Source: Lumbricus rubellus (Eukaryota; Annelida; Clitellata; Crassiclitellata; Lumbricidae). Taken from it: a stretch of 64,000 nucleotides of DNA. Positions 1,050-58,545 of the stretch are shown piece after piece. The notes under the pieces are model-generated. The model was given only the letters and a program-made list of their open reading frames with translations, did no database searches and was not told where the DNA came from. The position numbers and the translations under genes are program-made. Positions within the stretch are counted from its first letter, which is position 1. The number at the start of each line of letters is the position of its first letter. The stretch spans positions 437,831 to 501,830 of the forward strand of contig OX243824.1 in NCBI GenBank assembly GCA_945859605.1. The letters are read 5' to 3'.

Positions 1050-1088
1050 TTAAACACCTTTATTTATATTATCTCGCGCCTATGTAAA
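1050..1088 (+). promoter_or_regulatory. PSE-TATA-like promoter, site 1
   Basis: AACACCTTTA core starts at 1053 and a TATGTAA box starts at 1081, 28 nt later. It is followed about 87 nt on by copy 1 of the CCAGGG stem-loop module. The spacing matches the other sites in the window; the TATA is one base off canonical. Confidence 0.5.
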
Positions 1089-1139
1089 TCTGGCTTCTGC
1101 TAGTGTATTAATTCTGATATTCCCTTAAGATTAAAAATT

Positions 1140-1211
1140 AAGTGCTGTGATATTATGCTAGACAAATTTTTGTCGAGGGCAACGGCCTCTGCTGTCATAG
1201 GCCCTGGTCAA
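1140..1211 (+). repeat. CCAGGG/CCCTGG stem-loop module, copy 1
   Basis: This is one of four related copies (1.14, 18.84, 41.69 and 52.50 kb) built as AAGTGCTGT..AATAT, then GTCCAGGG, a conserved loop around AACGGCCTCTGTTGTCAT, then CCCTGGTC. The stem arms are 1174-1180 and 1201-1207, with one mismatch here. A PSE-TATA site lies just upstream. It could be a small structured RNA or the 3' end of a short retroposon; the sequence alone does not decide. Confidence 0.5.
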
Positions 1212-1659
1212 AGCAGGATCGTCCTCCTCTTCAGATCTGATATAAATCATTGCCGGTACCTACAGCCGAGAGGGTCTCGATAAAACGTGCGTACGACATG
1301 TAAATTTCTAATCATGACGTCAGTGTTGCATCTAATAATGTCATAAATGTAGAATTTTCATTAGCGACGTTAACAACTTTTGATGTCATAAATATTATGT
1401 CGCGGAATACATAGCTACCTTCAAAACAGTTATCATGATCCTTATCTTAGTTTTGTTTAATCTGATCGGTATTATAATTCGAGGAATGTTCCTCCATTCG
1501 ACAACTTTAACTGTATTTTGGATAAAAATCGACGCAACTGCATAGCTAGCTGCAAGATGTCGGTAAACACTTTTAACCAATCAATCATTCAATCAAAAAA
1601 TAAATAAATTCATATCTCGAGCTGCCCTAGTCTCAAAAGGACTATGTCAAAATTATTGT

Positions 1660-1735
1660 ACATTATTCATTCATTCATTCCGAAAACTTATATAGCGCCC
1701 CTTCATGAAATCTACTCAGAGGCGCTCCCAGCCCA
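1660..1735 (-). mobile_element. L2-type 3' tail fragment
   Basis: A CATT-type simple tail is followed by the reverse complement of the tail GGGAGCGCCTCTGAGTAG...GGGGCGCTATATAA. The same tail ends the L2 LINE copies and SINEs elsewhere in the window. Confidence 0.6.
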
Positions 1736-2126
1736 GCCACGATTAAAAAGATAGGTCTTAAGCAACTATGGTTTATAAGTATCACTTGAAGAAGTCATCA
1801 GTCAACCCCCTTCAACACAACCATGTTCAGTAATTGACGGCAGTTCTGAATTTCTGTATCATATCTCAACCCACCCATCCATCTCCGGAGTTTCTCGTGA
1901 GTCGTAAGAAATCCATCAAGGCATTGGGAGTTCTTATTAGAGAGAAATTTACACTTAGAGACCACATTGAAAACCAGCTTTGATGCCACAGCTGAGTCCT
2001 TTTCAACTGGATATGGTTTTTTTAATATAAATTTAATGTGCACTTTAACCGGTTGCGGTCTGTCAACCAGATTATTCAATAAAGAGAATAATTATTACTA
2101 ACCCTCTTTCTTGAAACACAGAGTCG

Positions 2127-2166
2127 TTAAGCACCTTTAAATTGGATGTTATTATACTTATATGTA
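2127..2166 (+). promoter_or_regulatory. PSE-TATA-like promoter, site 2
   Basis: GCACCTTTAAATTGG has its first aligned base at 2130, and TATATG starts at 2159 (29 nt). About 60 nt upstream lies a hairpin-like block (CCGGTTG...CAACC) followed by CAATAAAGAG, shared with site 4. Confidence 0.55.
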
Positions 2167-2323
2167 GTATTATTTACCAAAATTTGAAATTATAGCTTTT
2201 GCTAAAACCACGAAGCCGGTAAATTAAAGTATCAATAGAAATCGTAATAATTACACAAACTTATAAAATAGCCCCTCGAAAGCCAGGCGCGGGGCACCAG
2301 CTTATTCACGAGCACGAGCGCTG

Positions 2324-2375
2324 CTTTTGGACTACTACGGACAGCCCTTTTGGGCTGTCCGTAGTAGTCCAAAAG
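2324..2375. repeat. Perfect 24-bp-arm hairpin, TTTT loop
   Basis: Arms 2324-2347 and 2352-2375 are perfect reverse complements (core GGACTACTACGGACAGCCC), separated by TTTT. The arms carry no mismatch at all, unlike every other inverted repeat nearby, so it looks young or maintained. Confidence 0.85.
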
Positions 2376-2394
2376 GAGGTTCGGGTCCGGTTGT

Positions 2395-2435
2395 CATATG
2401 ACCGGCGGGGTTGCAGGTTCAAATTCCCGACATGT
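2395..2435 (+). repeat. tRNA-like B-box, SINE-type fragment
   Basis: GGTTGCAGGTTCAAATTCCCG fits a tRNA T-arm/B-box (GGTTCRANYCC). No complete cloverleaf can be drawn, so this is a tRNA-derived remnant rather than a tRNA gene. Confidence 0.4.
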
Positions 2436-3066
2436 ATTTTTTTAACCAAATTACCTGTGATGAATATACTAATCGTGCGCCATCGTTGGGAAGCTCTGAA
2501 GGTAAGGCAAGGTCTTCTCTAACCAAAGACATGTCACAGACCATATATCTATATACATCTCTTCTTGGTAATCTTAAGTCTAATTTCAGCCTTTGTCCTG
2601 GACTCTTGATTTTGGTTTAAATGAGTGTCAGTTTACGTTTCTCCATGCCACTTCGCTTTGCAGCACGGCGGCCATCGACAACTACTATCGATCTCAACGC
2701 AATACAGTTTGGGGTTCACATGAAGAGAACGTTCCGCCGGTTCCACAGATGAAATTTAGTCCGTCGCCAAAATGATGCTAATTTACCCGCCAGAAAAGGT
2801 GATGACCTTTTTTCTTCGTTTGAAGTTCTTGGAAGGGGGGAGCTAAGCCCGAGAAAATATACCATTTACATGGTAAAAAAAGTGTGAGTATGCGCCTTCT
2901 TGGGGGCCTAGCACCCCCTTAGCTTCTGATAAACTCCGCCCATGTAAAATTTGTACCAGTATCTTTCATTTGACTTATGTATGAACTGAAAAATGTTATA
3001 AAGAAAAACGAAGCCGTCGCGGAGACAACGCATTTTGAAAACGGTGAACGAACTTTCGAGTCACCC

Positions 3067-3405
3067 TGAACCCACTGCTGTAAAGCCGACCTGCGTGTCG
3101 TGCTATAGTTTGTCGTATTTCGTATAACCTGTACCTGTAATCAATCTGCGGTCTGTCAGATTGAATCATTAAACGAAGATTATTATTATTAACAGAAACT
3201 TCTTACTTAGACACCTCTGTCTAGTTTAATGCACATTCTATAAATACATTATTTTCGGTTTAGCGCTCGTTAAGTAATATCTTCTCTATAATTAACATTC
3301 AATCTGACACACCGCAGAATGATTACAGGTACAGGTTATACGAAATACGGCCAACTATAATAGCACGACACGCAGGTCGGCTTTACAGCAGTGGGTTCGG
3401 TAACT
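3067..3405. repeat. Inverted repeat, ~105-bp arms
   Basis: The left arm (about 3067-3170) and right arm (about 3300-3405) are near-perfect reverse complements, with shared blocks such as CCACTGCTGTAAAGCCGACC and GTATAACCTGTACCTGTAAT. The ~130-bp loop contains PSE-TATA site 3. Confidence 0.8.
3207..3247 (+). promoter_or_regulatory. PSE-TATA-like promoter, site 3
   Basis: TTAGACACCTCTG starts at G3210 and TATAAATAC starts at 3239 (29 nt). It lies in the loop of the 3067-3405 inverted repeat, so a transcript starting ~30 nt downstream would run into the right arm. Confidence 0.55.
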
Positions 3406-3419
3406 TAACACTATTGGCC

Positions 3420-3636
3420 TAAGTGCTGGATCACTCCTGGTTCGGCCAATCCAGAAGTGGGAGGGGCTATCTTACTTTCAGCAGAACCCGAGTCAAACAA
3501 CACAACAGCAAAGCGCCTACGGCAGCTAACAGAAACTTTAATAATTTTTGCCCTGAGCGAGGCTTGAACCCGGATCGCGATAATGACAACTCAGTTGATC
3601 GACCAGCGCTCTCTCAACTGAGCTACGGGACCCCCC
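3420..3636 (-). mobile_element. tRNA-derived SINE
   Basis: On the minus strand the head is GGTCCCGTAGCTCAGTTGAG with an A-box, a plausible anticodon arm, then GGGTTCAAGCC as B-box (about 3633 down to 3555), followed by a non-tRNA body to about 3420. The T-stem does not pair well, so it is a SINE and not a functional tRNA gene. Confidence 0.65.
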
Positions 3637-3869
3637 ACCCCCCGCCCCCCCCCCCAAGTCGTAAAACAACAGGTAAACAACGTCAATGGTCTTAGTGGAG
3701 ATTTACTTCCGCTACATGCAGCTCAATATAATTTGCTGGACTACCATCGGCTCTCGCGAATAAGCTGGTGCCCTGCGTTTGACTTTCGAGTGGCGCTATC
3801 GAAATTCGGAGATTGCTATTACGATCATGATTACGATTCCCAAAGTATTCTTACCCTCCCTATAATATA

Positions 3870-4007
3870 TTTTGACCTCAGAAACCTTCTCAGCCATTGC
3901 TAAATTGGGGGCGATGCCTTGACAACATCGCCATACCAATGCAGCTACCATGAACTCAATACGTTGGCGAATAAGGAGCCAGTGAAGTACCTCAAGACAA
4001 GACCATA
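3870..4007 (-). mobile_element. L2-type LINE fragment, 3' piece
   Basis: Minus-strand translation gives LHWLLIRQRIEFMVAALVW, the conserved C-terminal block of L2/CR1 reverse transcriptases (compare LHWLPIRQRIQFRVSALVW at 40.7 kb). It belongs with 4678-5190 as a single L2 copy split by the piggyBac-type element. Confidence 0.75.
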
Positions 4008-4011
4008 TTAA

Positions 4012-4673
4012 CCCTCGAGTGCCCAAGAGGGGGGGGGGGGTCCGACCGGACCCCAGGCCTGTTTTTTCCGGATAACTTTTAAAGGCTTGGGATCTGCATA
4101 AATGCTTTTAGGTATTGATAGAACAACCATTTGGGCATAGATTGGTATATTTTGCGTGAGTATTGTCCAACCCTGCACCCCACAACCACAGCATATACTA
4201 AGGGTACCCCCTGATATGCGGCTGATATTCATACAAGCGCATGGTTACTGGTCAATAACTATTATTTTATACCAGGTGGTGCTATTGTGATATAATATAC
4301 ATCAATCGATTGCAAATTTAGTTGGGATTACTTAAAACTAAATTATATAACGATATTCCAATCCCTTCTCAAGATATTAACATGAACACGCTGGGGTCCG
4401 TGCCGGACGTATAGGCTTTCCTTCGATAAATAACGCAAGCATGCAAGCATAACATATGTATTACGAGATTTTTACACTATTAGTTTACACCAGGTGGTGT
4501 TATTGTGCTATGAGATACATCAATCGATTGCAAATTCATTTGGGATTACATTGAAATAAATTCTATGACGATATTCCAATCCCTTCTCAAGATATTAACA
4601 TAAAACGCTGGGGTCCGCGCGGACCCCCCCCTTGGGCCTTCGTGTACCAAAAAATACCTTGGGCACTCGAGTG
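4012..4673. mobile_element. piggyBac-type element (TTAA, CCC...)
   Basis: TTAA occurs at 4008-4011 and 4674-4677. The ends are CCCTCGAGTGCCCAAG and its inverse CTTGGGCACTCGAGTG. Insertion is into an L2 copy. Subterminal G9/C7 blocks (GTCCG/CGGACC) extend the inverted repeat. The interior has two direct copies of a ~130-bp block (4275-4405, 4488-4620). No transposase is present, so it is non-autonomous. TTAA targets are diagnostic of piggyBac-like cut and paste. Confidence 0.75.
4275..4620. repeat. Direct duplication (~130 bp, two copies)
   Basis: Copies 4275-4405 and 4488-4620 share CAATCGATTGCAAATT, CGATATTCCAATCCCTTCTC and CGCTGGGGTCCG, offset by about 213 bp. Both are inside the piggyBac-type element. 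Confidence 0.8.
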
Positions 4674-4677
4674 TTAA

Positions 4678-5190: not shown

Positions 5191-5512
5191 TGATATGCAC
5201 CATAGGCCTATCCTCCGGCAGTTTTTGTGCAAGTATGACGCGTCTCTGAATGGTCATTATGTGATAGACGCTCTTCAAATCTTTCGATACCACGTTCTGG
5301 AAACTGCAATATGCTGCGTCCTTGTATGATGGAAAGATGGATGAACAAAAATGTTCGTCATTTAGATAATTAATTAATTATTGTAAGCGTCGTTGCGAAT
5401 GCATCCAATCAATTTAACTTACAGGAAAAATTTATATATTGCTACTAAATAATGAAAATAAATGTGTCTAAATATTATAATTGATTAATTCATTTAATGA
5501 TTATTTAATCAA

Positions 5513-5859: not shown

Positions 5860-6500
5860 CTCTAGAGTCTAGAGATCATTATATGCTCAATTCGCTGCTT
5901 GAGTAGGAGACAGTGGAGAACGTCACTCATATGACTGGAGAAGATGTTGCTGAATTTGGGTATGCGAGCGAGCAACAGTGCGTAGTTGACATAGTTGATA
6001 GTAGCAGGTACATCTGAGTGAGTGAATGTGTGGAGCAAAAGTAGCTTTTTGTCCAGGTAAACCGTGTCATGTTGTGAAATCTGGCGACTGATAAGGTTTG
6101 TGACGTCGTTAACACGTTAGGCCTACCACGTCTTTCGATTTTATTTCGGAGCTCCGAATCGTAAAACAGCAACTGACGATTTCGAAACCTTTTAATTGGT
6201 CGCACTTGACCCTATAATATGTTACATTTACGATTTCGGATAATATCGGATCCGATGCCCGTTATAATACCGCCACAGAGTCCCGTGCCTAGATAAAGGA
6301 TTACAATAACGTTGAACTTTGCTCTTCCTGGCGTAGTGGTGATGGTGCATTTCATAACACGCTGGTGTTGATTGCAAAAGGCAACGAGTTCGCGCCCCGT
6401 ATGCTATTATCGCCGAGTATATTGCAGGCTGTCTGTTCTGTTAGTAGTTAAAATTAATGTTTTATGTAATTTGCGTTCTTGTGAATTGTTTAAATTGCAT
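5860..6500. other. unassigned intergenic
   Basis: No coding similarity, terminal repeat or promoter motif recognised in this stretch. Confidence 0.35.
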
Positions 6501-6597: not shown

Positions 6598-6637
6598 ATA
6601 GACACCTTTAAATTGATGTTATAATATAATGTAAATT
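6598..6637 (+). promoter_or_regulatory. PSE-like site 4 (weak TATA)
   Basis: GACACCTTTAAATTG starts at 6601. The TATA position reads ATGTAAATT, not a canonical box. The upstream block CCGGTTG...CAACCGG plus CAATAAAGAGAAT (about 6520-6560) is shared with site 2. Confidence 0.4.
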
Positions 6638-8165: not shown

Positions 8166-8204
8166 CAAGACACCTTTAAATCGGGTTTCCTAGCTACATA
8201 AACG
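8166..8204 (+). promoter_or_regulatory. PSE-like site 5 (TACATAA)
   Basis: GACACCTTTAAATCG starts at 8169; the nearest TATA-like string TACATAA starts at 8195, 2-3 nt early relative to the other sites. Degenerate. Confidence 0.35.
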
Positions 8205-8828: not shown

Positions 8829-8869
8829 GCTTAAAAAGGTAAAAAAGAATAATATTAAAAGGTGTCTAA
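8829..8869 (-). promoter_or_regulatory. PSE-like motif, minus strand (no TATA)
   Basis: On the minus strand TTAGACACCTTTTAATATT starts at 8866. Position 29-30 reads TTTTTAAG rather than TATA, so this is a decayed or chance match. Confidence 0.25.
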
Positions 8870-9120: not shown

Positions 9121-9160
9121 TTAGACACCTTTATGTTTGTTATTCCAAAATTATATAAAT
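9121..9160 (+). promoter_or_regulatory. PSE-TATA-like promoter, site 6
   Basis: TTAGACACCTTTATG with G at 9124; TATATAAAT starts at 9152 (28 nt). No coding region follows; the next recognised item is a reverse GGAGGGCG module at 9.45 kb. Confidence 0.6.
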
Positions 9161-11218: not shown

Positions 11219-11259
11219 TTAGACACCTTTGATGCACTTATTTCAGACTTTATATAATT
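11219..11259 (+). promoter_or_regulatory. PSE-TATA-like promoter, site 7
   Basis: TTAGACACCTTTGATG with G at 11222; TATATAATT starts at 11251 (29 nt). Downstream sequence is unlike that after other sites. Confidence 0.6.
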
Positions 11260-12007: not shown

Positions 12008-12048
12008 TTAGACACCTTTAAATTCTTTATTTATATTTTATATAAATA
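12008..12048 (+). promoter_or_regulatory. PSE-TATA-like promoter, site 8
   Basis: TTAGACACCTTTAAATTC with G at 12011; TATATAAAT starts at 12039 (28 nt). This is one of the closest matches to the composite consensus. It lies 85 bp upstream of the hAT insertion at 12134, so a downstream transcript would be interrupted by that element. Confidence 0.65.
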
Positions 12049-15552: not shown

Positions 15553-15592
15553 TTAGACACCTTTGTATTAGGAATACAAAATTTTATAAATA
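15553..15592 (+). promoter_or_regulatory. PSE-TATA-like promoter, site 9
   Basis: TTAGACACCTTTGTATT with G at 15556; TATAAATAG starts at 15585 (29 nt). Lies ~60 bp upstream of a minus-strand LINE relic. Confidence 0.6.
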
Positions 15593-16574: not shown

Positions 16575-16614
16575 TTGGACACCTTTAAATCAAATAATAA
16601 AGACGTTATTTAAG
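16575..16614 (+). promoter_or_regulatory. PSE-TATA-like promoter, site 10
   Basis: TTGGACACCTTTAAATC with G at 16578; TATTTAAG starts at 16607 (29 nt). TATTTAA is a weak TATA variant. Confidence 0.5.
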
Positions 16615-16911: not shown

Positions 16912-16952
16912 ACGCCCTCCTCTTTTATCCAGGCTTGGGACTGGCACTGGCA
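16912..16952 (-). repeat. CCAGTCC...GGAGGGCG module
   Basis: Minus strand: GTGCCAGTCCCAAGCCTGG, ATAAAAGAGGAGGGCGTCGC, then AATGGCCTTTGTTACCAC and ACGTTGAAC. This is the best-preserved copy. CCACTGGTTGCACTCTGCC lies just 5'. Confidence 0.75.
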
Positions 16953-17018
16953 GAGTGCAACCAGTGGCGGAGTCCATTAATATGCAGGCCTAGTAGTATA
17001 GTTGCAGTTTAACGTCAC

Positions 17019-18809: not shown

Positions 18810-18834
18810 TATTCAGGTTTGGGACTGTATTATG

Positions 18835-18895
18835 CCAAACAAACAAATTTATGTCCAGGGCAACGGCCTCTGTTGTCATGGGCCCTGGTCACACA
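18835..18895 (+). repeat. CCAGGG/CCCTGG stem-loop module, copy 2
   Basis: Stem CCAGGGC (18855-18861) pairs with GCCCTGG (18882-18888), 7 bp perfect, around the conserved loop AACGGCCTCTGTTGTCAT. A short ATCC tail follows. Confidence 0.55.
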
Positions 18896-18939: not shown

Positions 18940-18980
18940 CAAGACACCTTCATTTTGGTTAATCTCATCATAATAATTAC
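18940..18980 (+). promoter_or_regulatory. PSE-like motif, degenerate TATA
   Basis: GACACCTTCATTTTGG with G at 18943; TAATAATT sits at the TATA position. Duplicated at 51539 within the segmental repeat. Confidence 0.3.
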
Positions 18981-19860: not shown

Positions 19861-20385
19861 ATAAAAATAAAGTTTACGCAGGAAGTTGTTGCCAGACACT
19901 TTTTCTGGAAATATTGTTTGTATAAGTGTAGATATATTATATTAAATAATATTCTTATCATATCTTATACCTTTTATTCGTTTACTTTGTGTCGTATATA
20001 AACAAAACCAGATCTATTTCAGTAAATTATAAAGACGATCCGCTTTTGCAACAATACAGAAGAAACTTTTACAGATGTTAAAATCAAGACCACCGATAAT
20101 TATCTATCGTATGGTCGACTAGATGTGGCGCCCGTGTACTTCCTATGTTGCAATTCGCACATTTTCAGCAGATCACCCTGCATACGTACAAATACGTTTC
20201 TCTTTTCTCTTAAATCTTTCAATACATTATGTGATCGATAGATCTGTGTAGAAATAATGTTGATGTATTGTAGGGGGTCATGGTTGTCACTAGCTGTCGC
20301 TACCCTATTTGCTGCTACCAATAATGTTATGGTCATTTTAGACATAGTGGCATAGGTCTCTACAATTATGTATTTTTATACGTAC

Positions 20386-29165: not shown

Positions 29166-31644
29166 CAGGGGTTATTTTAACGTGCAGCTGGACACAAAGT
29201 GTGTAGTTGGAAAACGAATTTGTGCAGTTGAAAATCAGGTTTTGTGCAGTTACTTTTTTACACACAACCGCATAAACAAGGTAAGTAGCTAATATATTTT
29301 ACTTAAACTATTAATTTGTAACAAACAAGATTATACGACATTTTGTCGTGAATTTAACTTTAAATTTCTACTGACAACTCTATTGGCATAAAATATAAGC
29401 ATGGGCGAAGTTCATCAGAGTAGCCTATATCTAAGCCCCCACAATAATCCACCAACTTTACCATGCATCAATAAGGATTTTTATAAGGGTAAAAATGGTA
29501 CATTAGTGGATGCAACAAAAGAGCAAAAGGCCTAGACAGTGAGCTGCTGGCCACCAGCCCCCTTCCATACATCAAGACTGTGAAAACGAGGACTGGCAAT
29601 GTGTAGCAGAACCGTAGTATAATTCTTTTAATGAGCAAAAAACAGGTTGGCAGAATACAACCTGGGACAATGAGACAAACTAAAAGATAGAAGTAGATAT
29701 CAGTTATTAGTAGGCTATTAATATATCACATGGTTTTCACATCACTACCGTATTGTCAGTTGTCACCTGGAGGTGAAGTTCTAAGCATTTTCATGGAAGT
29801 TCAAAGTTGTGCATTTGCTCTCTGATCATGAGAAGTGGCCAGCGACTTGTGATCTGTGAAGTATTCTCATCGATTTTCGGGTGTCTAAGGTCGTCATTAT
29901 GATTTTAAAATTGTCAAAAAATTTCGGATGTCTAAAGACATTATTTTGATTCCAGTATTATCAATGATTTTCAGGTGTCTAAGGAAATCATTTTAATTTT
30001 AGTAGTATGATTTTTATAAACGATTTTCAGGTGTGTAAGGACATCTTTTTGATTCCAGTATTAGCAACGATTTTCAGATGTCTAAGGACATCTTTTTGAT
30101 GCCAGTATAATCAACATTTTTTGGGTGTCTAAGGATATTATTTTGATTTTAATGTTATCAACGATTTTCGGGTGTGTTAAGACATCATTTTGAATGCAGT
30201 ATTATTAACGATTTTCAGGTGTGAAAAGGCATCAATTTGATGCCAGTATATTTTTATCAACGATTTTTGTGTGTCTAAAGACATCATTTGATTTCAGTAT
30301 TATCAACGATGTTCGGGTGTGTAAAGACATCATTTGATTTCATTATTATCAACGATTTTCGGGTGTCTAATGTCATCATTTTGATTTTAATATTATCATC
30401 CATTTTCGGGTGTGTAAGGACATCATTTGATTTTAGTATTATCAACGATTTTCCGGTGTCTAATGTCATCATTTTTATATTAATATTATCAGCGATTTTC
30501 GGTTGCATCAGGATATCATTATGATTCCAGTATTTTCAAAGATTTTCGGGTGTGTAAGGACATCATTTTGATTTTAGCAATACAAACGATTTTCGGGTGT
30601 GTAATGATATCATTTTGATTTTAGTATTATCAACGATTTTCACGTGTGTTAAGATATCATTTTGAATGCAGTATTATTAACGATTTTCAGGTGTCTAAGT
30701 ACATCTATTTGATGCCAGTAATATCAACGATTTTTGTGTGTCTAAAGACATCATTTTGATTTCAGTATTATCAACGAAATTTGGGTGTGTAAGGACATCA
30801 TTTGATTTCAGTCTAATCAACGATTTTCGGGTGTCTAGTGTCATCATTTTGATTTTAATATTATCAACGATTTTCGGGTGTCTAAGATGATCATTATGAT
30901 TTTAGTATTTTCAACGATTTGTGGGTGTGTAAGGACATCATTTTTGATTCTAGTATTATCAACGATTTTTGGGTGTCTTGGGATATCATTTTGACTTTAT
31001 TATTATCCACGATTTTCGGGTGTATAAGGATTTCACATAGGTGCCAGTATTTTCAACAATTTTCAGGTGTCTAAGGACATCAATTTTTTCCCGGTATTAT
31101 CAACGATTTACGGGTGTTTAAGGACATCATTTTGAATCCAATATTATCAACGAAATGCTGTCTTGAAGTTGACTTGACTATTGTAGAGATACGCGGGACA
31201 TTGGAATTCCAGCAGGTTAAGAACTTTTATGACATCATAGACAAAAATTGGTAGGCCCTATAATAGACGTCATTGTTAATCTATTTAATTACTGTTTAGC
31301 GAAAATGTGCACATTCCCCTCTCGGCGCGTCGCGTTTTGGCGCTTGTACTTCTGCCGCTCTGTGGTTTACCCAAACACACGAGGGGCCATTTATGATTTA
31401 GTCCCCCCCCCCCAAGAGCTGGGACCAAACTCCGCCCATGCAAATAAAGTATTGACTTGATTAAACTGGCTTCAAAGTTTATAGCTGCAAACTTCAATCA
31501 CAAAACTTGCAATAGGCCGACTATAGGCTTCTCTAAATGTCTTTTGAAAATAGAGTATTATTCCAAATCGGAAAGACCAATTTACACGATGATGATATTC
31601 TGAAAATTATGTGCAGTTGAGAAATTTCCTTAAAATAACCCCTG
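29166..31644. mobile_element. hAT-type element carrying a minisatellite
   Basis: Ends CAGGGGTTATTTTAA and TTAAAATAACCCCTG with a perfect 8-bp duplication CACCACTA (29158-29165, 31645-31652); the empty site is a SINE. The interior has GTGCAGTTG-type subterminal repeats, two CATGGGCGGAG-type MITE ends (29401, 31426-31440) and a 1.3-kb array of a 47-bp unit. No transposase. Confidence 0.9.
29871..31153. repeat. 47-bp minisatellite, about 27 copies
   Basis: Unit of the form TTTTCGGGTGTCTAAGGACA, then TCATTTTGATTTTAGTATTA, then TCAACGA; most copies are 46-47 bp, a few longer. The complementary strand of every unit contains TTAGACACC, the same 9-mer that opens the PSE-like sites. Apparent frames such as 30284-30524 are the repeat read through. 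Confidence 0.9.
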
Positions 31645-39332: not shown

Positions 39333-40191
39333 TTTCACTCAGAGCATCAAGACACAAGAAAATAAAGATATGTATCTGCATGGAATGACTAAGCTACGAA
39401 ACGAGATCTTCATACTCTTTTCATCGTCTTCTACTATAATTCATGTCTTTGAAGATCAAAACCCATTCAATTGGCAAAAGGAAATCAAACTAACAGAGAT
39501 TAAAATTGTGCGTGACATTCGATCCAATGAGAAGGAAAATTGTCTTTACCTCACTGACTATCATGATGACAATATCGTCTGGAAGATAACAAGAGAAGGA
39601 GATGACGAACACAAAATCATCAGATGGCTGACAATTTCTGGTCCACCATATGTTATGTCAATGTCGACTGATGGTCAGTTCATGACTTTCCATAAATCAT
39701 CGTCCTCTCTGATGATCTACGGATCAGACGCAAAACTCATTCGATCCATTCAGTTGCCAACAGACATCGTGTATCCTCTTCATGCAGTGGAAACATCCAT
39801 CGGGAATTGTGTCATACTTCATCAGTGGATAAAACAGAATGGAGAGAATGAGTCGAATGGGTTAGTGCGGGTAACAAAGTTTGACATATGTGAGTTGAGC
39901 AGAGATGGACAGATAGTGCGTCGTTTTATTCCTTCAGATGAAACACAACAACTGCATAATTCTGAGTATTTCTCAATCGACTCAGAGGATCGAGTGTTTG
40001 TGGTTGACTATGGGAATAGTAGAGTGATTCTATTGGATTCCGATCTAAGATGGGACGGAATTCTTATTCTTACAATAGAGAAAGAAGAGTTGGGTATCGA
40101 ATGGCCATACAGATTGTGTTACGACGAAGAAAAGAAACAACTGATCGTCACAGGAACTCAAGTTAAGGTTTACTCTTTGAGTCGGAAATAA
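39333..40191 (+). CDS. NHL-like beta-propeller exon
   Basis: Acceptor CGTTTTCTCTCAG (AG at 39331-39332), phase 2. It encodes ~286 residues to TAA 40189-40191. Repeated blade-like blocks include ENCLYLTDYHDDNIVWKIT, MSMSTDGQFMTFH, LIRSIQLP, HAVETSIGNCVILHQW, ICELSRDGQIVRRFIPSD, FSIDSEDRVFVVDYGNSRVI and LCYDEEKKQLIVTG. The D.D.R.FV.D..N.RV pattern is that of NHL/six-bladed propellers, used for protein or RNA binding. An alternative start at ATG 39259 would give a 310-residue protein with a signal-peptide-like leader, but that leader is likely intron sequence. AATAAA overlaps the stop codon. Confidence 0.7.
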
Positions 40192-41150: not shown

Positions 41151-41191
41151 TTAGACACCTCTATTTTTGATATTTTATGTCTTATAATATG
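41151..41191 (+). promoter_or_regulatory. PSE-TATA-like promoter, site 11
   Basis: TTAGACACCTCTATT with G at 41154; TATAATATG starts at 41183 (29 nt). A forward GGAGGGCG module lies 190 nt downstream. Confidence 0.6.
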
Positions 41192-41339
41192 TATATCCTA
41201 ATTTTTGATGTTTACTATATCTGTCATATGCCGGAAGAATCACCATCTCCCCAGTTCATTGTCTAAAAATTATAAAAATAATATAAGAGTAATAAAGTCG
41301 TAACAGAGCAACTACCCCTGGACAATTACCTCGGGACGG

Positions 41340-41382
41340 TACCAGTCCCAAGCCCGGATAAAAGAGGAGGGCGATGCAACTG
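41340..41382 (+). repeat. CCAGTCC...GGAGGGCG module
   Basis: ACCAGTCCCAAGCCCGGATA then AAAGAGGAGGGCGATGC, followed by TGATCTTTGTTATCAC. Confidence 0.75.
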
Positions 41383-41604: not shown

Positions 41605-41645
41605 TAAGACACCCTTAGGTTGGATATTTTTAGTATATATAAGGC
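41605..41645 (+). promoter_or_regulatory. PSE-TATA-like promoter, site 12
   Basis: TAAGACACCCTTAGG with G at 41608; TATATAAGG starts at 41636 (28 nt). The stem-loop module copy 3 starts 80 nt downstream of the G. Confidence 0.6.
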
Positions 41646-41687
41646 GGAATTTTGCAAAATCTTATCAGTATATAAATTGCTTATTAA

Positions 41688-41785
41688 GTGCTGTAATATG
41701 CCGAGCAAATTTCTGTCCAGGGAAACGGCCTCTGTTGTCATAGACCCTGGTCAAATCAAATCCATCCATCCATCCATCGATTCCT
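41688..41785 (+). repeat. CCAGGG/CCCTGG stem-loop module, copy 3
   Basis: CCAGGG 41717-41722 pairs with CCCTGG 41745-41750 around AAACGGCCTCTGTTGTCATA; an ATCC tail (41759-41778) follows. PSE site 12 lies upstream at nearly the same distance as site 1 lies from copy 1. Confidence 0.6.
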
Positions 41786-43353: not shown

Positions 43354-43393
43354 TTTAACACCTTTATAATTGGTTATTACTTCTTATATAAAA
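43354..43393 (+). promoter_or_regulatory. PSE-TATA-like promoter, site 13
   Basis: TTAACACCTTTATAATTGG with first aligned A at 43357; TATATAAAA starts at 43385 (28 nt). GTCAAAACAAAATCGATGG follows ~110 nt on, a block shared with 19.5, 51.8 and 56.65 kb. Confidence 0.6.
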
Positions 43394-43748: not shown

Positions 43749-43792
43749 TTAGACACCTTTAAATTTTTTGATGAAATATATATATATATATA
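43749..43792 (+). promoter_or_regulatory. PSE-TATA-like promoter, site 14
   Basis: TTAGACACCTTTAAATT with G at 43752; a TATATATATATA run covers the TATA position. GAGTCGTTAAGC precedes it at 43730, as upstream of site 2. Confidence 0.6.
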
Positions 43793-44349: not shown

Positions 44350-44391
44350 TTGGACACCATTTTATCTTTATTTTCCGATACTATAAATAAA
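44350..44391 (+). promoter_or_regulatory. PSE-TATA-like promoter, site 15
   Basis: TTGGACACCATTTTATC with G at 44353; TATAAATAA starts at 44382 (29 nt). A forward GGAGGGCG module lies ~147 nt downstream. Confidence 0.55.
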
Positions 44392-45137: not shown

Positions 45138-45177
45138 CTTATAAACCAGTAGCAATGTCAAATTATAAGGTGTTCAA
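45138..45177 (-). promoter_or_regulatory. PSE-like motif, minus strand (marginal)
   Basis: Minus strand GAACACCTTATAATTTG starts at 45174; TTTATAAG sits 2 nt later than usual. Weak. Confidence 0.25.
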
Positions 45178-45359
45178 TAAAAGGAAATAAAAACACCCAA
45201 TAAAATTCGCAGTTTTCAGCGAGGCGTTTATTTACATGCATATAGAATTTTTCTCGCATAAAATTTTATTATTTTGTCATCCATCTTCCTGACTTGGTCT
45301 CCTAAGACTGAAATTACAACTACAACTACCTTACGCAAAATCAATGTTCGGATTCTGTC

Positions 45360-45404
45360 AGTGCCAATCCCAAGCATGGATAATGGAGGAGGGCGACGAC
45401 AATG
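45360..45404 (+). repeat. CCAGTCC...GGAGGGCG module
   Basis: GTGCCAATCCCAAGCATGG then ATAATGGAGGAGGGCGACG. Confidence 0.6.
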
Positions 45405-46058: not shown

Positions 46059-46098
46059 TAGGACACCTTTAACTTGTAATTCATGAAGCTATAAATTG
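46059..46098 (+). promoter_or_regulatory. PSE-TATA-like promoter, site 16
   Basis: TAGGACACCTTTAACTTG with G at 46062; TATAAATTG starts at 46090 (28 nt). Confidence 0.65.
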
Positions 46099-48779: not shown

Positions 48780-48824
48780 CAGCGTCGCCCTCCTGCTTCA
48801 TTCAGACTTGAGACTGGCACTGTA
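48780..48824 (-). repeat. CCAGTCC...GGAGGGCG module
   Basis: Minus strand: GTGCCAGTCTCAAGTCTG then AATGAAGCAGGAGGGCGACG. The minus-strand PSE at 48963 lies ~140 nt 5' of it. Confidence 0.65.
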
Positions 48825-48925
48825 AGAATGCCTGCAGTGGAAGACCAGGTATACAGTTGAAACACGTTAACATACAGATTTCTTTATAATTGTTTATGTG
48901 ACCCTGACACCGAATGGTGAAATTA

Positions 48926-48966
48926 AAATATATAATGACATTTTCAAACAAGTTGAAGGTGTTTAA
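48926..48966 (-). promoter_or_regulatory. PSE-TATA-like promoter, minus strand
   Basis: Minus strand AACACCTTCAACTTG starts at 48963; TATATATTT starts at 48934 (29 nt). Confidence 0.6.
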
Positions 48967-49417: not shown

Positions 49418-49459
49418 TGCATATGTAGAGAATATTAATCACGACATTAAGGTGTCTAA
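49418..49459 (-). promoter_or_regulatory. PSE-TATA-like promoter, minus strand (TACATAT)
   Basis: Minus strand TTAGACACCTTAATG with G at 49456; TACATATG starts at 49427 (29 nt). One mismatch in TATA. Confidence 0.5.
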
Positions 49460-49693: not shown

Positions 49694-49735
49694 TAAGACA
49701 CCCTTATTTTGCTTAATATATGTATATATTAAATA
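49694..49735 (+). promoter_or_regulatory. PSE-TATA-like promoter, site 17
   Basis: TAAGACACCCTTATTTTG with G at 49697; TATATATTA covers 49723-49731. Confidence 0.55.
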
Positions 49736-49739: not shown

Positions 49740-50140
49740 ACTTGCAACATTTGCTGCGGTGATATCTCGCGTAATTGGTTATTTTCCCTCTAACTAGTTG
49801 TAATAACTTGCAGGAAATGGCCATGTCAACCAACAAGTGTATTATAGCGTCGTTGGTATTCAGCGTATAAATTCAAAGCTGTCGCCATCTGGTGATATTT
49901 ACAAAGTCAGAAAATTTCGTTGGATGACACTTATAATTATAGTGACTATAATAGTACTCATGCAAGCAATAATTTTCCGGTCATTTGTAACCCAGTTGTA
50001 TACGAAGATTTCAACACCTTTGACTAGAAAAGAATAGACTTTATATAATGCAATATCAGATGAGATTTTTTCGATTTCCGCATTGATCGCATAGGACAGA
50101 TATCAGAAAAGTACGTTCACATGAATAGAACGCTGTATAA
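49740..50140. other. unassigned intergenic
   Basis: A 66-codon frame (49837-50037) with a hydrophobic centre has no recognised family; not called as a gene. Confidence 0.35.
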
Positions 50141-50628: not shown

Positions 50629-50669
50629 TTAGACACCTTTAAGTTGTAATATATGTTCACTATAGTAAT
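50629..50669 (+). promoter_or_regulatory. PSE-TATA-like promoter, site 18
   Basis: TTAGACACCTTTAAGTTG with G at 50632; TATAGTAAT starts at 50661 (29 nt). Confidence 0.6.
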
Positions 50670-51520: not shown

Positions 51521-52402
51521 AGACTCAAGATAAGACAAGACACCTTCATTTTGGTTAATCTCATCCTCATAATTACAGATTTTGATAGGTTTCTTTCAAC
51601 TGAAACTTTTCCGCGCACCTATGCCCACGTTGCTGAGAACATTATAATTGAGCAAAGGAACGAGTCATTAACCTTCGCCAAGTTAAAAACCATTTGACCT
51701 TAAAGTTAAGATATTCGCATTTGTATAATATTATTACAGCGCAAAAAGTCGATGTCGCGGGAATCAGCTTATTTGCAGGCGCTCAGTCAAAACAAAAGCG
51801 ATGGGTGATATTATATTTTCGCAAAAAGCAATTCTACCTATACTGCAAACTGGAAAAAACGTTAACAGTTCGCTTATTCCTTTTAAGATTCTTTTTCTTA
51901 CCTTTTGTTTAATTGGGTGAAACTCCTCGTTACCGCTCTGATCTTACTACGCGGTCTATCTTGGGCATAACTTCAGGAGTCCTCTTAGCTCTAGAGTATC
52001 GGATTTCCACAGCCCATGATCATGCCTGTGACTATGTTGTCATTTTACATTGGAATAAAATAGAATAGAATAGAATATACAATACAATACAATACAATAT
52101 AAAACATAAAGTGGACGCAGGAAGTTGTTGCCAGACACTTTTTCTGGAAATATTGTTTAGCTTAAGTGTAGATAGATAGATTAGATACCTTTGTATCGTT
52201 TACTTTGCTTCCTATATAAACAAAACCAGATCTATTGCAATAAATTACAAAAAAAATTATCGTTTGCAACAATACATGACTATATAGATGTTAAAATCAA
52301 CGTCATCAATATGTATCGTATGGTCGACTGTGGAACCAGCGTACTTCCTCTGTTTCAATTCGCACATTTTGTGGAGATCACCCTGCGTACGTACAAATAA
52401 GT
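51505..52402. repeat. Segmental duplicate of 18905-20200
   Basis: Lacks the L2 insertion present in the other copy, so it preserves the pre-insertion sequence. Contains a degenerate PSE at 51539 (TCATAAT at the TATA position). Confidence 0.8.
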
Positions 52403-52501
52403 TTTTATATCCATCCAGTTACAAAAGTTAATCAGTTAAAGTCGTCTTCGAAACTTCTGTTCTTCAAAAACAAAACAAATCTGGTCTAGTACCTTTCTCA
52501 T

Positions 52502-52570
52502 AAGTGCTGTAATATTCCGAGCAAATTTCTGCCCAGGGTAACGGCCTCTGTTGTCATAGACCCTGGTCAA
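52502..52570 (+). repeat. CCAGGG/CCCTGG stem-loop module, copy 4
   Basis: CCAGGGT (52533-52539) pairs with ACCCTGG (52560-52566). The closing pair is T-A here and C-G in copy 2, a compensatory change. Confidence 0.55.
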
Positions 52571-52867
52571 ATTGGAATCCTCCTCCTCTGTTCTTCAGTT
52601 GTGGACGTCATATTTAGAAATTTATTTTTGTGAACGTAGGCCTAATAAATGCATTTTACCGAGACCCAAGTAACAGGCCTAATGTAGACAACCCTTAATT
52701 AGAAAGCCTTTAGAGACACTGTTGCGTCTAATATATGAAAGAAATGTAGACAATTTTTCATCGAGTATAATTTTGCGGCATTTGAGACAATGTTACCATC
52801 TGATTCATCAGCTTTTGTCGTAACTACTGTTATCAGTTGCGCCAGTTGAGAGTTGTGACAGTTGTCT

Positions 52868-53059: not shown

Positions 53060-54300
53060 TTAAACACCCATTTATTAATTATTTACTCTATATATATATA
53101 ACATTTTATAACGTCATGCATTATTGCAGTTTCGGCACAAAGAAACTAGACATGACAATAATAAAGTTACGTTCATAATACGGCCATCAGAGAACGCTAG
53201 AATTGCGAACAGATAATTGTCGAATTTAAAGTTTTCACTTTTATATAATACATATTTGCACACAGTTTGTGGTGTTATGTTCACAAAAGAATTCATTTAC
53301 CGTAATCAAGAAGAAACGTTAGTAACAATTAGGCCTACTACTTAAAGTATTGCTGAACTCTATTCTGTCTTGCTTCGATTTCCCTCACGAGACGTCTAGA
53401 TTAAACACCGTCTGTTAACACATGTAGACCAACGTACATGCGGCGAGTTTCAGTAGTTAAGTCGAAAAATAACAAAGATTTGGATACGGGCGACAGTGGC
53501 ATGCATTAGAGCATGCGATAACTCGTAACTGTCTCAGCTGGTAGTAGCAACTGCGGCAGAGTTGATGGATATGTCACACAAACCTTAGTTCTTGACCAAG
53601 CGTGGCATCAAGATTCATGAACAGTGTTAAGACTTAAGAGAAATTGAATTGAAGGAACACAGTAGCAAGCTCACACAAATTGAGAGTAGCAAGCTGTTGC
53701 CTCGTGCCAAGCCATACGAATTGAGCTTTTGAACGGACTATAAAACGTAAGCGGATACAGAAATATTGCAGGTGGTCTTGGGGGAAAGAAAATTATTTGA
53801 TTCTTAGCCAAAAAATCTGACAGCCTTTTTCCCCACAAATTTCTTTTAAAAACCCGTTGCAATTCCGGTTATTTGAAAGCTGACGAACTTTTTTGAGTCA
53901 TATGCTACTTTTTCTCTCTCTCGCCTTTACCCGCTGCTTTGATTGACGACTTGAAACCTGATGGGGGAAACACGTCTTGTACAAATCTCTGAATGGGGTA
54001 TGTACGGATTGCCTCTTCTCCCTCCATTGATCCGCCCCTGGTCTTGGCCAAATCATCCAGCGCCATACATCACACATGCGTCGGAGTGTCATCAGCGTGG
54101 TTATCGTATTTGCAGTAGTAACATCAGTTATATCGGTTTAAAGCCAGGGTGTGAATTGCCGGGGTTTGGGGGTTTCAACCCCCCAGTCTTTCTTAGAGCC
54201 CCATGTTAAAGTATGTTTTTTACACCCCAATTCCAAGTAGATAATGGTCCAACCCCCAGTTATTTTTCCACAATTCTCACACTGTTTAAAGCCACCGTGT
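53060..54300. other. unassigned intergenic
   Basis: A GATCCGCCCCTGG MITE-type end (54.03 kb) and a GGGGTTTGGGGGTTTCAACC block (54.16 kb) with partly inverse neighbours suggest small MITE remnants. No gene recognised. Confidence 0.35.
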
Positions 54301-54447: not shown

Positions 54448-54488
54448 TTAAATATAGGTTGGTAAACAATAACTTTTAAGGTGTCCAA
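54448..54488 (-). promoter_or_regulatory. PSE-TATA-like promoter, minus strand
   Basis: Minus strand TTGGACACCTTAAAAGTT with G at 54485; TATATTTAA starts at 54456 (29 nt). Confidence 0.6.
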
Positions 54489-54557
54489 GCATTGATCAAT
54501 ACGATTTTATTAGTTCCGTAGTTGTATTTTCCGTAGTTTATTAGTTGTACCGTAGTT

Positions 54558-54808: not shown

Positions 54809-54844
54809 ATGTAGTGTGCAAAGATGTTGTCAATCAATAAATCA

Positions 54845-55085: not shown

Positions 55086-55309
55086 CATTCTGCTATTCCC
55101 ATGTAAAGGTTTTAAGCAGAATAAAACAGCTGCAACAATAGCGCGCTCAATAGCGATATTTAAATTATGCCTTTGGTGGAAAGCAGAATTAACTTCGAAG
55201 TAAAATGAAAACAACTATTATTTTCATTCTGATACTAATAACATTGTTAGCAAAATCTGTCACTAGGACATCTCACCATCTGATACACGATATCAGGAAA
55301 GAAATGAGT

Positions 55310-55350
55310 TTATTTATATCACACGCTTCTTAAATTAAAAAGGTGTTGAA
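55310..55350 (-). promoter_or_regulatory. PSE-TATA-like promoter, minus strand
   Basis: Minus strand AACACCTTTTTAATTTAAG starts at 55347; TATAAATAA starts at 55318 (29 nt). Confidence 0.55.
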
Positions 55351-55869
55351 ATGGTATAAAATCGTTAAAACTGCGCTCTGCTCAACGTCATTTTAATTGA
55401 GACTTTGCCGCACAACTACCTTACTATTTAAACGGCAAAATTAAGTCAATTTAAATTCGCAAAGTAAGCACTAAACTATTAATAGTAAAATGTAGCGCAC
55501 TGCTCTTTCTCTAAAAGAACGCCAAATCAAAGCAAGGAAGTGGTCTAAGTGTTGTTGTTTTCACAGTAGGCCTACTTATTTATTCTATAGCATTGTCTGA
55601 TTGTAGGCCTATTGATTGCTAGCGTATAGACTCTAGACGCTAGCAATAAATAGGCCTAAAATCTAGAGTATTCTTGGAATAATAATTATACAATGGAGCG
55701 TATATTATTATTTATATTAATAACAACTAGGTATTTTCGAGAAGACAACAGTCTTAATCATACTGATAGCACCACTGTGACAGTGTCTCCACATTGCCAT
55801 TAATAACAGATAAAGGAACTGAGTAAGAAATTCTTTATAGACATCTACCAAACGCGATAAGTTTATGCT

Positions 55870-56150
55870 TATGGAGAAAGGGACTTACTTGACTTATGGC
55901 CTTGGCGATGCCCCAGCACGCAGAAGCCGCTCATTTATGGAAGCTCTCCATCTCCCTCTGTTCTCCGCCTGCATCGACAGCCTCCACCATCGACAGCCCC
56001 ACCTCCTGACAGTCCTCCTTGATCATGTATCTCCATCGTTTGTTCGGTCTTCCCCTTTTTTTCTTCCCTGTACCTCTCCATTGAAGGCTATCTTAGGATG
56101 TCTATCATTCTCCATCCTGACCATGTGCCCAAAGTAGCGCAGCCGTATGG
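55870..56150 (-). pseudogene. LINE RT C-terminal fragment
   Basis: Minus-strand frame: IRLRYFGHMVRMENDRHPK, KKRGRPNKRWRYMIKED, then an EQREMESF block. Same terminal block class as 15.7 and 57.8 kb. Confidence 0.75.
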
Positions 56151-56441
56151 AGAAAGTAATTCACAGAAACTGTAGAATTGGGTAATTTCGTTTAATTTCA
56201 TATTAATAGGCATCGGGATATTTTACTGTTGTGTTTCAATTTGTCAGATCAACTAATTTTATGATGTTAAAAATGAATATAATAAGCGAAATTTTATTTA
56301 ATTTATTAGTTGATAATCGAGAAATAAATTATAGAAACTAAGAGACTTCGAAAATGGCGCAGATGAAAACGTCGCATTTCGAGATACTCTTTGGTCTACC
56401 AATAAACCTTCATCATTAGAGCCTAATCATTCTGGCTATAG

Positions 56442-56482
56442 TTAGACACCTTTAATTGTTATAATTTCAACATATATATTTT
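56442..56482 (+). promoter_or_regulatory. PSE-TATA-like promoter, site 19
   Basis: TTAGACACCTTTAATTG with G at 56445; TATATATTT starts at 56473 (28 nt). CGCTCAGTCAAAACAAG lies 200 nt on. Confidence 0.6.
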
Positions 56483-56793
56483 TCATGACTCAAATTCTGC
56501 AGATTTGACGTTGCCTACAGTGTTTACTTGCGTCGAGAACAACAAAAACCACGACTCATTAAAAAATTATTTAATTTATAAAGACAAGATAATCGGAAAC
56601 TTGAAACCTCCACAACCCCGTGAATGCTAAGTGGTGGCAGCCAGCTTTTCAGAGACGCTCAGTCAAAACAAGACCTATAGGAAGAAGGGTAAAGTCAGAC
56701 TTCCCCAAAACAAGTTTAGTGAGGGGAAGACTTTTATGTGGATGACTAGGCCTAAATGAAATAAAGTAGGATAGGAGAGGAATCGGGATCTGA

Positions 56794-57155
56794 GAATACT
56801 TTATAATTATGGATTTCATCATATAACTAAACGGACATTATCATCCCAGATAAAACCCCACCGGAAATAATCCCCAGGGTAGAAAGTTATTCCCTCCTAG
56901 TCCATTATACCAACTTAAAACCGATTGTTGACCGCACCTTTTTAATTAGTTTATACTAAACTTTATAGTATGAGTATATCACATTTAAAATGAATGGATG
57001 AAAATTAGCAACCTATCTTCTCAAGCATCATGTCCTAAGTCTCCTATCGGATGTCTATTAAACGATGAATACTTTATAATTATGGATTTCATCATATAAC
57101 TAAACGGACATTATCATCCCAGATAAAACCCCACCGGAAATTATTCCCTGGGTTA
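56794..57155. repeat. ~90-bp direct repeat, 273 bp apart
   Basis: ATACTTTATAATTATGGATT through ATAAAACCCCACCGGAAAT at 56794-56885 and again at 57067-57155; the segment between holds the inverted paralogue of 51.4 kb. Could be a terminal direct duplication. Confidence 0.8.
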
Positions 57156-57227
57156 GAACATTATTCCCCTCCTAGTCCATGATATCATTGCCTTAAAATG
57201 ATGCAAGAAACATGAGAATAAGTGGTA

Positions 57228-57310
57228 ACAGGACAATTACCCCCGAGCAATTACCCCTAGACAATTCCCAGACAATTACCCTATAGACAATTACCTCTAT
57301 GCCAATTACC
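57228..57310. repeat. Degenerate GACAATTACCCC tandem units
   Basis: Six or so copies of (A)GACAATTACCC; resembles decayed arms of the foldback family at 28.2 kb. Confidence 0.6.
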
Positions 57311-57350
57311 CCCCCCCTCCCAAGCTCCATAATGGAGGAGGGTGACGGGA
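57310..57350 (+). repeat. GGAGGGTG module
   Basis: CCCAAGCTCCATAATGGAGG then AGGGTGACGGG; paralogue of 41340-41382. Confidence 0.55.
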
Positions 57351-57568
57351 CTGATTTGTTTATCACAGCGTCATCGAACTCAGTCAACTACTGCTATTCA
57401 AAGATGAGGTGATATTCAGTTGGTTGAATATTCTGGATATTGGTCTGAAAACGGTTACTGAGGGCCACCTGGTGATGCCTTCAGCATTGAACATCACCGC
57501 AATTATAATTATCTGAACAAGATGACTTGAAAAACTTCTTCGGTATAATAGGTCTTTTGTGGCACCGC

Positions 57569-57610
57569 TAAGACACCCTTAGGTTGAATTTTTTTAGAAT
57601 TATATATAAA
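57569..57610 (+). promoter_or_regulatory. PSE-TATA-like promoter, site 20
   Basis: TAAGACACCCTTAGG with G at 57572; TATATATAAAG starts at 57601 (29 nt). Paralogue of site 12: the composite motif is preserved although flanks have diverged. Confidence 0.6.
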
Positions 57611-57732
57611 GCGTAATTTCGCTTTAGTTTATTCTGTGATTAACCATTTCCATTCTTGTTCGCTTGACGTTGATTGACCTCATTACGGTTGGATTTCCAC
57701 AAAATAACAATGAAAATAACATCCTCATTGGC

Positions 57733-57985
57733 TCATTCCTGAAGTTCGGAGATCAGAGGCAACGACAGCAGCTTCCTCCATTCCTCTCTATCCTGCGCCT
57801 GTCTGGCACAGTCCACAGGTGGTAGTCCGGTCCAGTCACATACATCATCAATCCAGCGCCTCCTTGGTCTTCCCCGTGCTCTGGTTCCCTCGATTCGTCC
57901 ATGTATTAGCAGTGTCGATATGTTCTCCACCCTCATCAGGTGTCCGAAGTATCGTAGTTTCCTTTTCTGCACCCTCTCCAACAGT
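57733..57985 (-). pseudogene. LINE RT C-terminal fragment
   Basis: Minus-strand frame: MERVQKRKLRYFGHLMRVEN, GTRARGRPRRRWIDDVCDWT, QAQDREEWRKL. Intact to its stop but only the last ~80 residues of a LINE polyprotein. Confidence 0.8.
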
Positions 57986-57999
57986 CCCTGTTTCTCTAT

Positions 58000-58500
58000 G
58001 AATGCTTAGCTGTAAAACGCAAAAATTGAACTTTTTTCGTTTTGTTCCCTGCTCATAGTTCACAGTAGCAACCAATTTGCAGCATTCTATGCAATACAAA
58101 TGAAAATGCGTAGCGCGCTCTAAATTAATAATAATAAGTAAGACAGGTCTTGTAGCCTACATGAGCACCAAGAACTTGGCAAGAAGAGTTTATTTAAAGA
58201 GGCGCTACATAAGATTTGTGTTCAAACACTGACGGTCTTAATGGAATTCTGCGACTCCTCGATAAATATGTCAGTTATAATTATGGTTAAATCGTCTAGC
58301 ATTTTAAAAGATTGTATTAGACGAATCGATCTAATCGATGTCGCAACGACGACGTCTAACACTGGAATAAAAAAATCTCTGACCAAATGTTGATGGAGGT
58401 CGGTTGCGAGATAAATAAAAATAATTGACCTGAACAATTTCAATTTAGACGCACATTTTACCAGTCTCTGTGTGACGTTGGAAACTCATTTTCTGCGAAT
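58000..58500. other. unassigned intergenic
   Basis: No family, terminal repeat or long conserved frame recognised. Confidence 0.35.
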
Positions 58501-58504
58501 AATG

Positions 58505-58545
58505 TTAGACACCTTGAAACCAATGTTTCTATATGCTATATAAGA
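58505..58545 (+). promoter_or_regulatory. PSE-TATA-like promoter, site 21
   Basis: TTAGACACCTTGAAACC with G at 58508; TATATAAGAG starts at 58537 (29 nt). Confidence 0.6.

Follow-up and report, generated by a model that had tools for sequence, protein, structure and literature searches.

The question raised by a 64,000-nt stretch of the genome of the annelid Lumbricus rubellus (contig OX243824.1, positions 437831–501830, termed the window here) is what is transcribed from a short composite promoter that is dispersed over it. This consists of a proximal sequence element (PSE) of the small nuclear RNA (snRNA) type, followed at a fixed distance by a TATA box. The dispersed motif is the host species' own snRNA PSE. 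On balance, the dispersed units are judged from their sequence features to be probably a library of individually promoted guide-RNA genes that resemble those of Piwi-interacting RNAs (piRNAs).

A naive position weight matrix (PWM) scan of the window is swamped by a 47-bp minisatellite with a PSE-like unit. The minisatellite (masked over 29850–31160) and eight simple-repeat stretches were masked before an iterated PWM scan, which shows 35 PSE plus TATA sites with scores above 17 (Table 1), 28 on the plus strand and 7 on the minus strand (binomial p = 0.0005). As the signal persists after masking, the minisatellite was rejected as its source. The lowest called site has a score of 20.5 and the next candidate 11.6. 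Order-3 Markov controls give a mean of 0.13 sites above 17 (30 runs, maximum 1), and a PWM scan of the reversed window sequence gives no site above 13. The PSE consensus is TTAGACACCTTTAAATTG, and the TATA consensus TATATAAA begins 28–29 nt past the G of the PSE. Counted without a spacing term, 10 pairs are at 28 nt, 19 at 29 nt and 8 or fewer at each other distance from 15 to 49, both boxes nonetheless having been trained on sites with that spacing; an exact-string search of the window displays the identical peak. The masked PWM scan finds the window free of PSE plus TATA sites between 19966 and 41154.

The nine coordinate pairs listed in the initial annotation of this region are all found in the sequence with the spacing claimed, including 43357 and 55347, where the motif reads AACACC and not GACACC as it was worded. 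The tally given there (17 plus-strand, 3 minus-strand and about 7 variant sites) holds as to the existence of the sites, and is somewhat low compared with the 35 found by PWM.

The snRNA genes of the same species identify the element. All 13 U1 genes were used, together with five strong U6 genes out of six matches and 15 of 46 U2 matches, nine of which were compared; six U2 upstream regions (L052–L057) were excluded, these being weaker matches with a non-U2-like beginning and no PSE. Scored with the PSE trained on the window, the 110 nt upstream of U6 have their best match at −64 in 5/5 genes. A 7-nt slot test places the best match at −58/−59 in 13/13 U1 and 9/9 U2 genes. The slot probability is below 0.05 in 9/13 U1, 9/9 U2 and 5/5 U6 genes, several of which are near-copies of one another; the U1 PSE is not individually significant in 4/13, though ACACC is present. 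When the full 160 nt upstream are searched, the top U1 match is at −58/−59 in 8/13 genes (the other five by the slot test only), and in the U2 array genes L049–L051 the best match is at −102 overall and at −59 in the slot. (The tandem U2 array, C7:20085887–20152201, lies beside dispersed U2 genes, and the PSE of three array genes, ACTACCTCG, is unlike that of the dispersed ones.) A search for a distal element upstream of the dispersed sites gave k-mer excesses that are only weak.

The identification of the motif as an snRNA PSE in the initial annotation is thus correct: in U6, U1 and U2 genes alike it keeps a fixed distance from the start, and the possibility that the species' own U6 and U1 genes use an unrelated PSE does not apply.

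The distance between the two boxes separates the gene classes. The TATA box is at G+34 (−30) in 5/5 U6 genes, with the start 30 nt past TATA, compared with 26–30 nt in U1/U2 and 28–29 nt in most dispersed copies. If the dispersed units start 30 nt past TATA, their PSE is at −58/−59, as in U1/U2. Since their TATA box is at G+28/29, the dispersed units, judged by spacing, have the geometry of the U1/U2 genes of RNA polymerase II (Pol II) and not that of U6. A TATA-like box near −30, searched at −33 to −28 from the transcription start site (TSS) only, is clear (slot probability below 0.05) in 4/13 U1 and 4/9 U2 genes; because 8/22 of these genes have such a box, TATA alone is not a mark of RNA polymerase III (Pol III) here. 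The units are like U6, a type 3 Pol III gene, in having PSE plus TATA and a start 30 nt past TATA, and unlike it in the PSE–TATA distance and in lacking a T-run terminator. They share with U1/U2 the position of the PSE and the TATA-like box, but have no snRNA body, a TATA box that is usually stronger, a YRNT start (see below) and thousands rather than tens of copies. The U6-like Pol III class proposed in the initial annotation is not borne out by the spacing, nor by TTTT, which shows no enrichment after the 35 sites; its proposal of many small transcription units is plausible.

Polymerase choice in this species may be set by the PSE–TATA distance. The snRNA promoters of Drosophila, which combine PSEA with either PSEB or TATA, have Pol II and Pol III classes that differ in the distance of the second box, distances alone being compared here. 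The Drosophila distances are reported as 8 bp for Pol II and 12 bp for Pol III, and the polymerase is reported to be decided by the sequence of PSEA rather than by the second box (PMC4227766). In land plants distance is reported to be decisive (PMC9841428).

The assembly (787 Mb, 368 contigs; the window is C17:437831–501830) contains 77 distinct sites with the exact motif (81 rows), and none with the reversed pattern. The looser strict pattern GACACCTTTN{19,20}TATA has 4570 matches versus 89 in the reversed control. Because this pattern fits 8/35 window sites, the genome total may be about 20,000 units, a figure extrapolated from one window and having a large error.

The dispersed copies crowd in megabase domains, frequently close to contig ends, and the window lies in one such domain of C17. 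Contigs C14 and C17, with 9% of the bases, carry 50/77 exact copies. The 18 copies on C17 are all within the first 6.31 of 33.7 Mb; on C14 (36.9 Mb), 32 copies extend between 0.14 and 35.8 Mb, most of them lying in its outer regions. Positions of strict copies come from the first 100 of the 4570 matches. Among these matches listed, C1 has 48/59 in the first 4.6 Mb of 68.4 Mb and 11 in the remaining 63.8 Mb, C2 (62.9 Mb) has 13 in the first 5.1 Mb, 12 at 54.9–60.0 Mb and 14 between these, and C3 has two. Eight arbitrarily placed loci (~35.6 kb readable) show no PSE plus TATA site, and one viral contig scanned for the motif shows none. Twenty 10-kb pieces picked at exact matches have 2–15 sites each with a score above 15, the piece with 15 counting nine minisatellite units. 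(It should be noted that loci L001–L028 were selected by the exact motif, and site density there is that of a non-random sample.)

For homology, the 800-nt stretch around every site was compared with the window. Homology across the PSE is found in five pairs of sites: 52184/19966, 57572/41608, 2130/6601, 18943/51539 and 41154/5468. The homology of the last pair stops inside the unit, at +21. The rest of the 35 sites have no PSE-spanning partner among the called sites. Positions 52507–52658 are homologous to the 18943 region and have no called site, and site 3210 is inside a 370-nt imperfect inverted repeat (3059–3405). A downstream redundancy filter kept 135 of 157 sites (22 were dropped as redundant or N-rich, and sites near locus ends were also excluded). 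With five homologous pairs among 35 sites and 135/157 sites non-redundant downstream, an origin as fragments of one repeat family, which the initial annotation had named as a possible objection, was rejected. Paralogue conservation was examined in four of the five pairs. In three of these, conservation is higher in the PSE than in the 120-nt upstream flank (20/21, 17/21 and 21/21 versus 78/128, 87/123 and 70/134).

Two near-identical copies in the fetched loci differ by a TTAA-flanked insertion with inverted ends, ~22–26 nt past the TATA start (L016 after 4669 versus L017 after 4129). A “replaced cassette at the start site”, striking by segment identities, was dropped when eight pair alignments gave the TTAA-flanked insertion plus indels and no single pattern. 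Tandem arrays whose units have PSE plus TATA are present at L028 347–739 (49 bp) and L013 5439–5606 (~56 bp).

The sequences downstream of the predicted starts are dissimilar. Over the 135 non-redundant sites, no column past +1 is above 0.45 for one base. An Rfam scan of the window yields no family at gathering score (weak matches are mainly simple repeats), in agreement with the initial annotation, which recognized no snRNA body. The mean folding z over the 35 window sites is −0.03, no better than shuffled, and TTTT is present within 100 nt in 18/35 sites versus 53% at random positions. For 24-mers between about TSS −22 and +37, 21–28 of 135 sites have a match elsewhere in the fetched DNA, compared with 38–55 for those from +38 on (shuffled letters 7–22), which hints at a functional unit ending near +37. 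Such a depletion is partly expected beside any selected motif; the upstream side at a similar distance is less depleted, 42 versus 23 of 135 (Fisher P = 0.010), a comparison chosen after viewing the table.

The U6 and U1/U2 genes place the expected start at TATA+30. The start-site analysis drew on 135 non-redundant sites, 34 of them in the window and 101 in fetched loci, with YRNT one of eleven patterns profiled. With Y at TATA+29, YRNT is found in 30/135 sites versus a background of 10.8 ± 3.4; offset 28 has 22. None of 20,000 rotations reaches 30 at any of 88 offsets. T follows YR in 30/49 sites compared with 23/86 without YR (Fisher P = 8.5e-5), and one position earlier in 22/38 compared with 28/97. 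Offsets 28–30 together account for 68/135, and three-wide windows starting at 30 or beyond for 21–43. A is scarce where the T stands (0.10 versus 0.38), so that this T is more than the “W” found in generic initiators, and the N position shows no preference for G/T. YRNT was counted before the snRNA genes were fetched, and thus the positional agreement with the U6/U1/U2 start was not arranged. The U1 and U2 starts read CATA and TATC, and neither fits YRNT. In C. elegans, YRNT is reported as the start signature of 21U-RNAs, with R as the start and T as the 5′ U (PMC4050365).

These features suggest how a unit might operate. Each site would amount to a full core promoter of the Pol II snRNA type in miniature: the PSE TTAGACACCTTTAAATTG would be bound by SNAPc, the strong TATA box 28–29 nt downstream of the G would position TBP, and transcription would start at a purine 30 nt past the TATA start (G+58/59), matching the U1/U2 start. 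The product would be a short capped RNA, probably ~30–40 nt, differing at almost all loci. The T of YRNT would lie two nt into the transcript and, after trimming of the capped end, may serve as the 5′ U of the resulting small RNA, as in C. elegans 21U-RNAs, and the small RNA would be loaded onto Piwi.

In these respects the units look, and probably work, like nematode type I (Ruby-motif) piRNA/21U loci, as found in C. elegans, Pristionchus and Plectus. Shared features are thousands of separate loci (the products here being presumably short), an element upstream that is akin to the SNAPc/PSE element of the species itself, megabase-scale clustering with dissimilar products, and YRNT at the start, here as a sequence signature alone. 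Nematode type I piRNA promoters are reported to derive from an snRNA element (PMC6436959). The earthworm PSE differs from the nematode GTTTC/CTGTTTCA, and the domains are on several contigs, unlike those of the nematode loci. The size of the genome and the sequence of U6 are also unlike those of nematodes. Known from genome sequence alone and having a TATA box, which P. sambesii loci lack, the units are not classed as members of the nematode type.

To our knowledge, single-gene SNAPc-driven piRNA loci are known from nematodes only, and a literature search, judged by titles and abstract openings, found motif-dependent single-locus piRNA genes in nematodes only. It is tentatively proposed, with some doubt, that a non-nematode animal makes piRNAs from ~20,000 individually promoted genes of the U1/U2 type (SNAPc plus TATA) in megabase domains, having an origin that is independent of the C. 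elegans type I system or makes that system far older.

Several observations weigh against a library of piRNA-like genes. The piRNA loci of Plectus sambesii are described as being without TATA boxes (PMC6436959), unlike the units here with their strong TATA at a fixed distance. As to the start, other patterns close after TATA (TTTT at +13, TG at +10) have a z comparable to or above that of YRNT, 101 of the 135 sites come from loci chosen for the exact motif, and YRNT is at the modal position in only 30/135. The window alone gives 5 at offset 28 and 5 at offset 29, and with 34 sites is too small to show a peak. The PSE of the pair 52184/19966 is not conserved above its flank, and in another pair the difference is small (17/21 versus 87/123). 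Some copies are contained in tandem arrays of near-identical 49–56 bp units, and a 5-kb control inside the domain (L035, C17, 1.0 Mb) has no site. A pausing-like signature, judged by GC content, is weak (0.413 at +10 to +17, and 0.35–0.36 across +18 to +81).

Another explanation is that Pol II snRNA-type promoters make short products other than piRNAs here (e.g. promoter-proximal capped RNAs or another small-RNA class), with YRNT as the initiator of the species. The known animal initiators TCAKTY and YYANWYY do overlap YRNT, and the geometry is the same as in U1/U2; but the depletion of A at the T position and the absence of a G/T preference at N are unlike these initiators, the species' own U1 and U2 starts do not fit YRNT, and thousands of dissimilar products in domains are the 21U pattern. 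This explanation is considered rather unlikely. It is improbable that the sites are mostly dead relics, i.e. promoter fragments spread by duplication or mobile elements with little transcription. Local families, tandem arrays, some degenerate TATA boxes and the TTAA-flanked insertion near one start site would all be expected of relics. The non-redundancy of most downstream sequences, the tightly kept PSE–TATA spacing and the conservation of the PSE above its flanks in three of four pairs would not, and the YRNT peak is difficult to account for unless the sites have, or once had, a function.

Both the strong TATA next to a PSE and the decisive role reported for TATA strength or presence in polymerase choice in humans (PMC9841428) would suit U6-like Pol III units. 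Units of this kind were rejected on spacing and absent terminators, and are very improbable: the PSE–TATA distance agrees with that of U1/U2 and falls 5–6 nt short of the one in 5/5 U6 genes of the species, and there is no enrichment of TTTT. Genes for spliced-leader RNAs use snRNA-type promoters as well, and the sites could belong to these or to other repeated snRNA genes. This explanation is largely refuted and hardly credible, there being no shared exon or other conserved sequence past the start, no Rfam match at gathering score in the window and no folding signal. A library of piRNA-like guide-RNA genes stays the favoured reading of the sites in Table 1.

Table 1. PSE plus TATA sites in the window, with the position of the PSE G, the offset of TATA from the G, and the PWM score.
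Site	Positions	Strand	Score	Remarks
PSE G 9124 + TATA +28	9121..9159	+	36.7	predicted start ~9182
PSE G 43752 + TATA +29	43749..43788	+	36.5	
PSE G 12011 + TATA +28	12008..12046	+	35.3	
PSE variant GATACC, 52184, + TATA +29	52181..52220	+	32.0	paralogue of 19966
PSE G 49697 + TATA +28	49694..49732	+	32.0	
PSE 48963 + TATA +29	48927..48966	-	31.7	
PSE 56445 + TATA +28	56442..56480	+	31.5	
PSE 57572 + TATA +29	57569..57608	+	30.7	paralogue of 41608
PSE 3210 + TATA +29	3207..3246	+	30.4	within inverted repeat 3059–3405
PSE 15556 + TATA +29	15553..15592	+	30.4	
PSE 50632 + TATA +29	50629..50668	+	30.3	
PSE 41608 + TATA +28	41605..41643	+	30.2	paralogue of 57572
PSE 11222 + TATA +29	11219..11258	+	29.9	
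PSE 41154 + TATA +29	41151..41190	+	29.5	weak homology to 5468 up to +21
PSE 46062 + TATA +28	46059..46097	+	29.0	
PSE 16578 + TATA variant +29	16575..16614	+	29.0	
PSE 1053 + TATA variant +28	1050..1088	+	28.3	
PSE 5468 + TATA +30	5431..5471	-	28.2	weak homology to 41154
PSE 2130 + TATA +29	2127..2166	+	27.1	paralogue of 6601
PSE 54485 + TATA +29	54449..54488	-	26.9	
PSE 50013 + TATA +29	50010..50049	+	26.9	
PSE 49456 + weak TATA +29	49420..49459	-	25.5	
PSE 51539 + weak TATA	51536..51575	+	25.4	paralogue of 18943
PSE 44353 + TATA +29	44350..44389	+	25.3	
PSE 43357 + TATA +28	43354..43392	+	25.2	
PSE 53063 + TATA +28	53060..53098	+	25.1	
PSE 6601, degenerate TATA TGTAAATT	6598..6637	+	24.5	paralogue of 2130
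PSE 18943, degenerate TATA	18940..18979	+	24.2	paralogue of 51539
PSE 8866, degenerate TATA	8830..8869	-	24.0	
PSE 58508 + TATA +29	58505..58544	+	23.6	
PSE 55347 + TATA +29	55311..55350	-	23.2	
PSE 8169, weak TATA +28	8166..8204	+	22.1	
PSE variant 6184 + TATA +29	6181..6220	+	22.0	
PSE 45174 + TATA variant +29	45138..45177	-	21.3	
Weak PSE 19966 + TATA +29	19963..20002	+	20.5	paralogue of 52184

Other features of the window were also seen. The minisatellite is at 29860–31153; its 47-bp unit is PSE-like on the minus strand with no TATA at the proper distance, and it is possibly derived from a promoter unit. The site-free part contains a frame with a CARD domain (Pfam PF00619, 33844–34179) and one with many relatives having NHL repeats (39391–40188). 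A long open frame at 61985–64000 has a SCAN-domain match and resembles a retroelement gag. A conserved 72-nt repeat is found at 1142–1213, 18823–18894, 41685–41756 and 52501–52572, a few hundred nt from several promoters, and was spotted by eye in locus L003 as well. Twister-like sequences (Type-P1, RF03160) at 16915–16973 (minus strand) and 41297–41375 (plus strand) score 51.5 and 28.9 bits against a cut-off of 67.2. They sit in a dispersed repeat family with 10 members in the window, others being e.g. at 48782–48839 (minus) and 45342–45398 (plus).

If the proposal is true, this would be a second lineage in which an snRNA promoter became a guide-RNA factory, a change that either arose more than once or is ancient. 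The units would also provide a natural TATA-containing variant for the study of polymerase choice by PSE–TATA distance, and predicted 5′ ends for thousands of RNAs.

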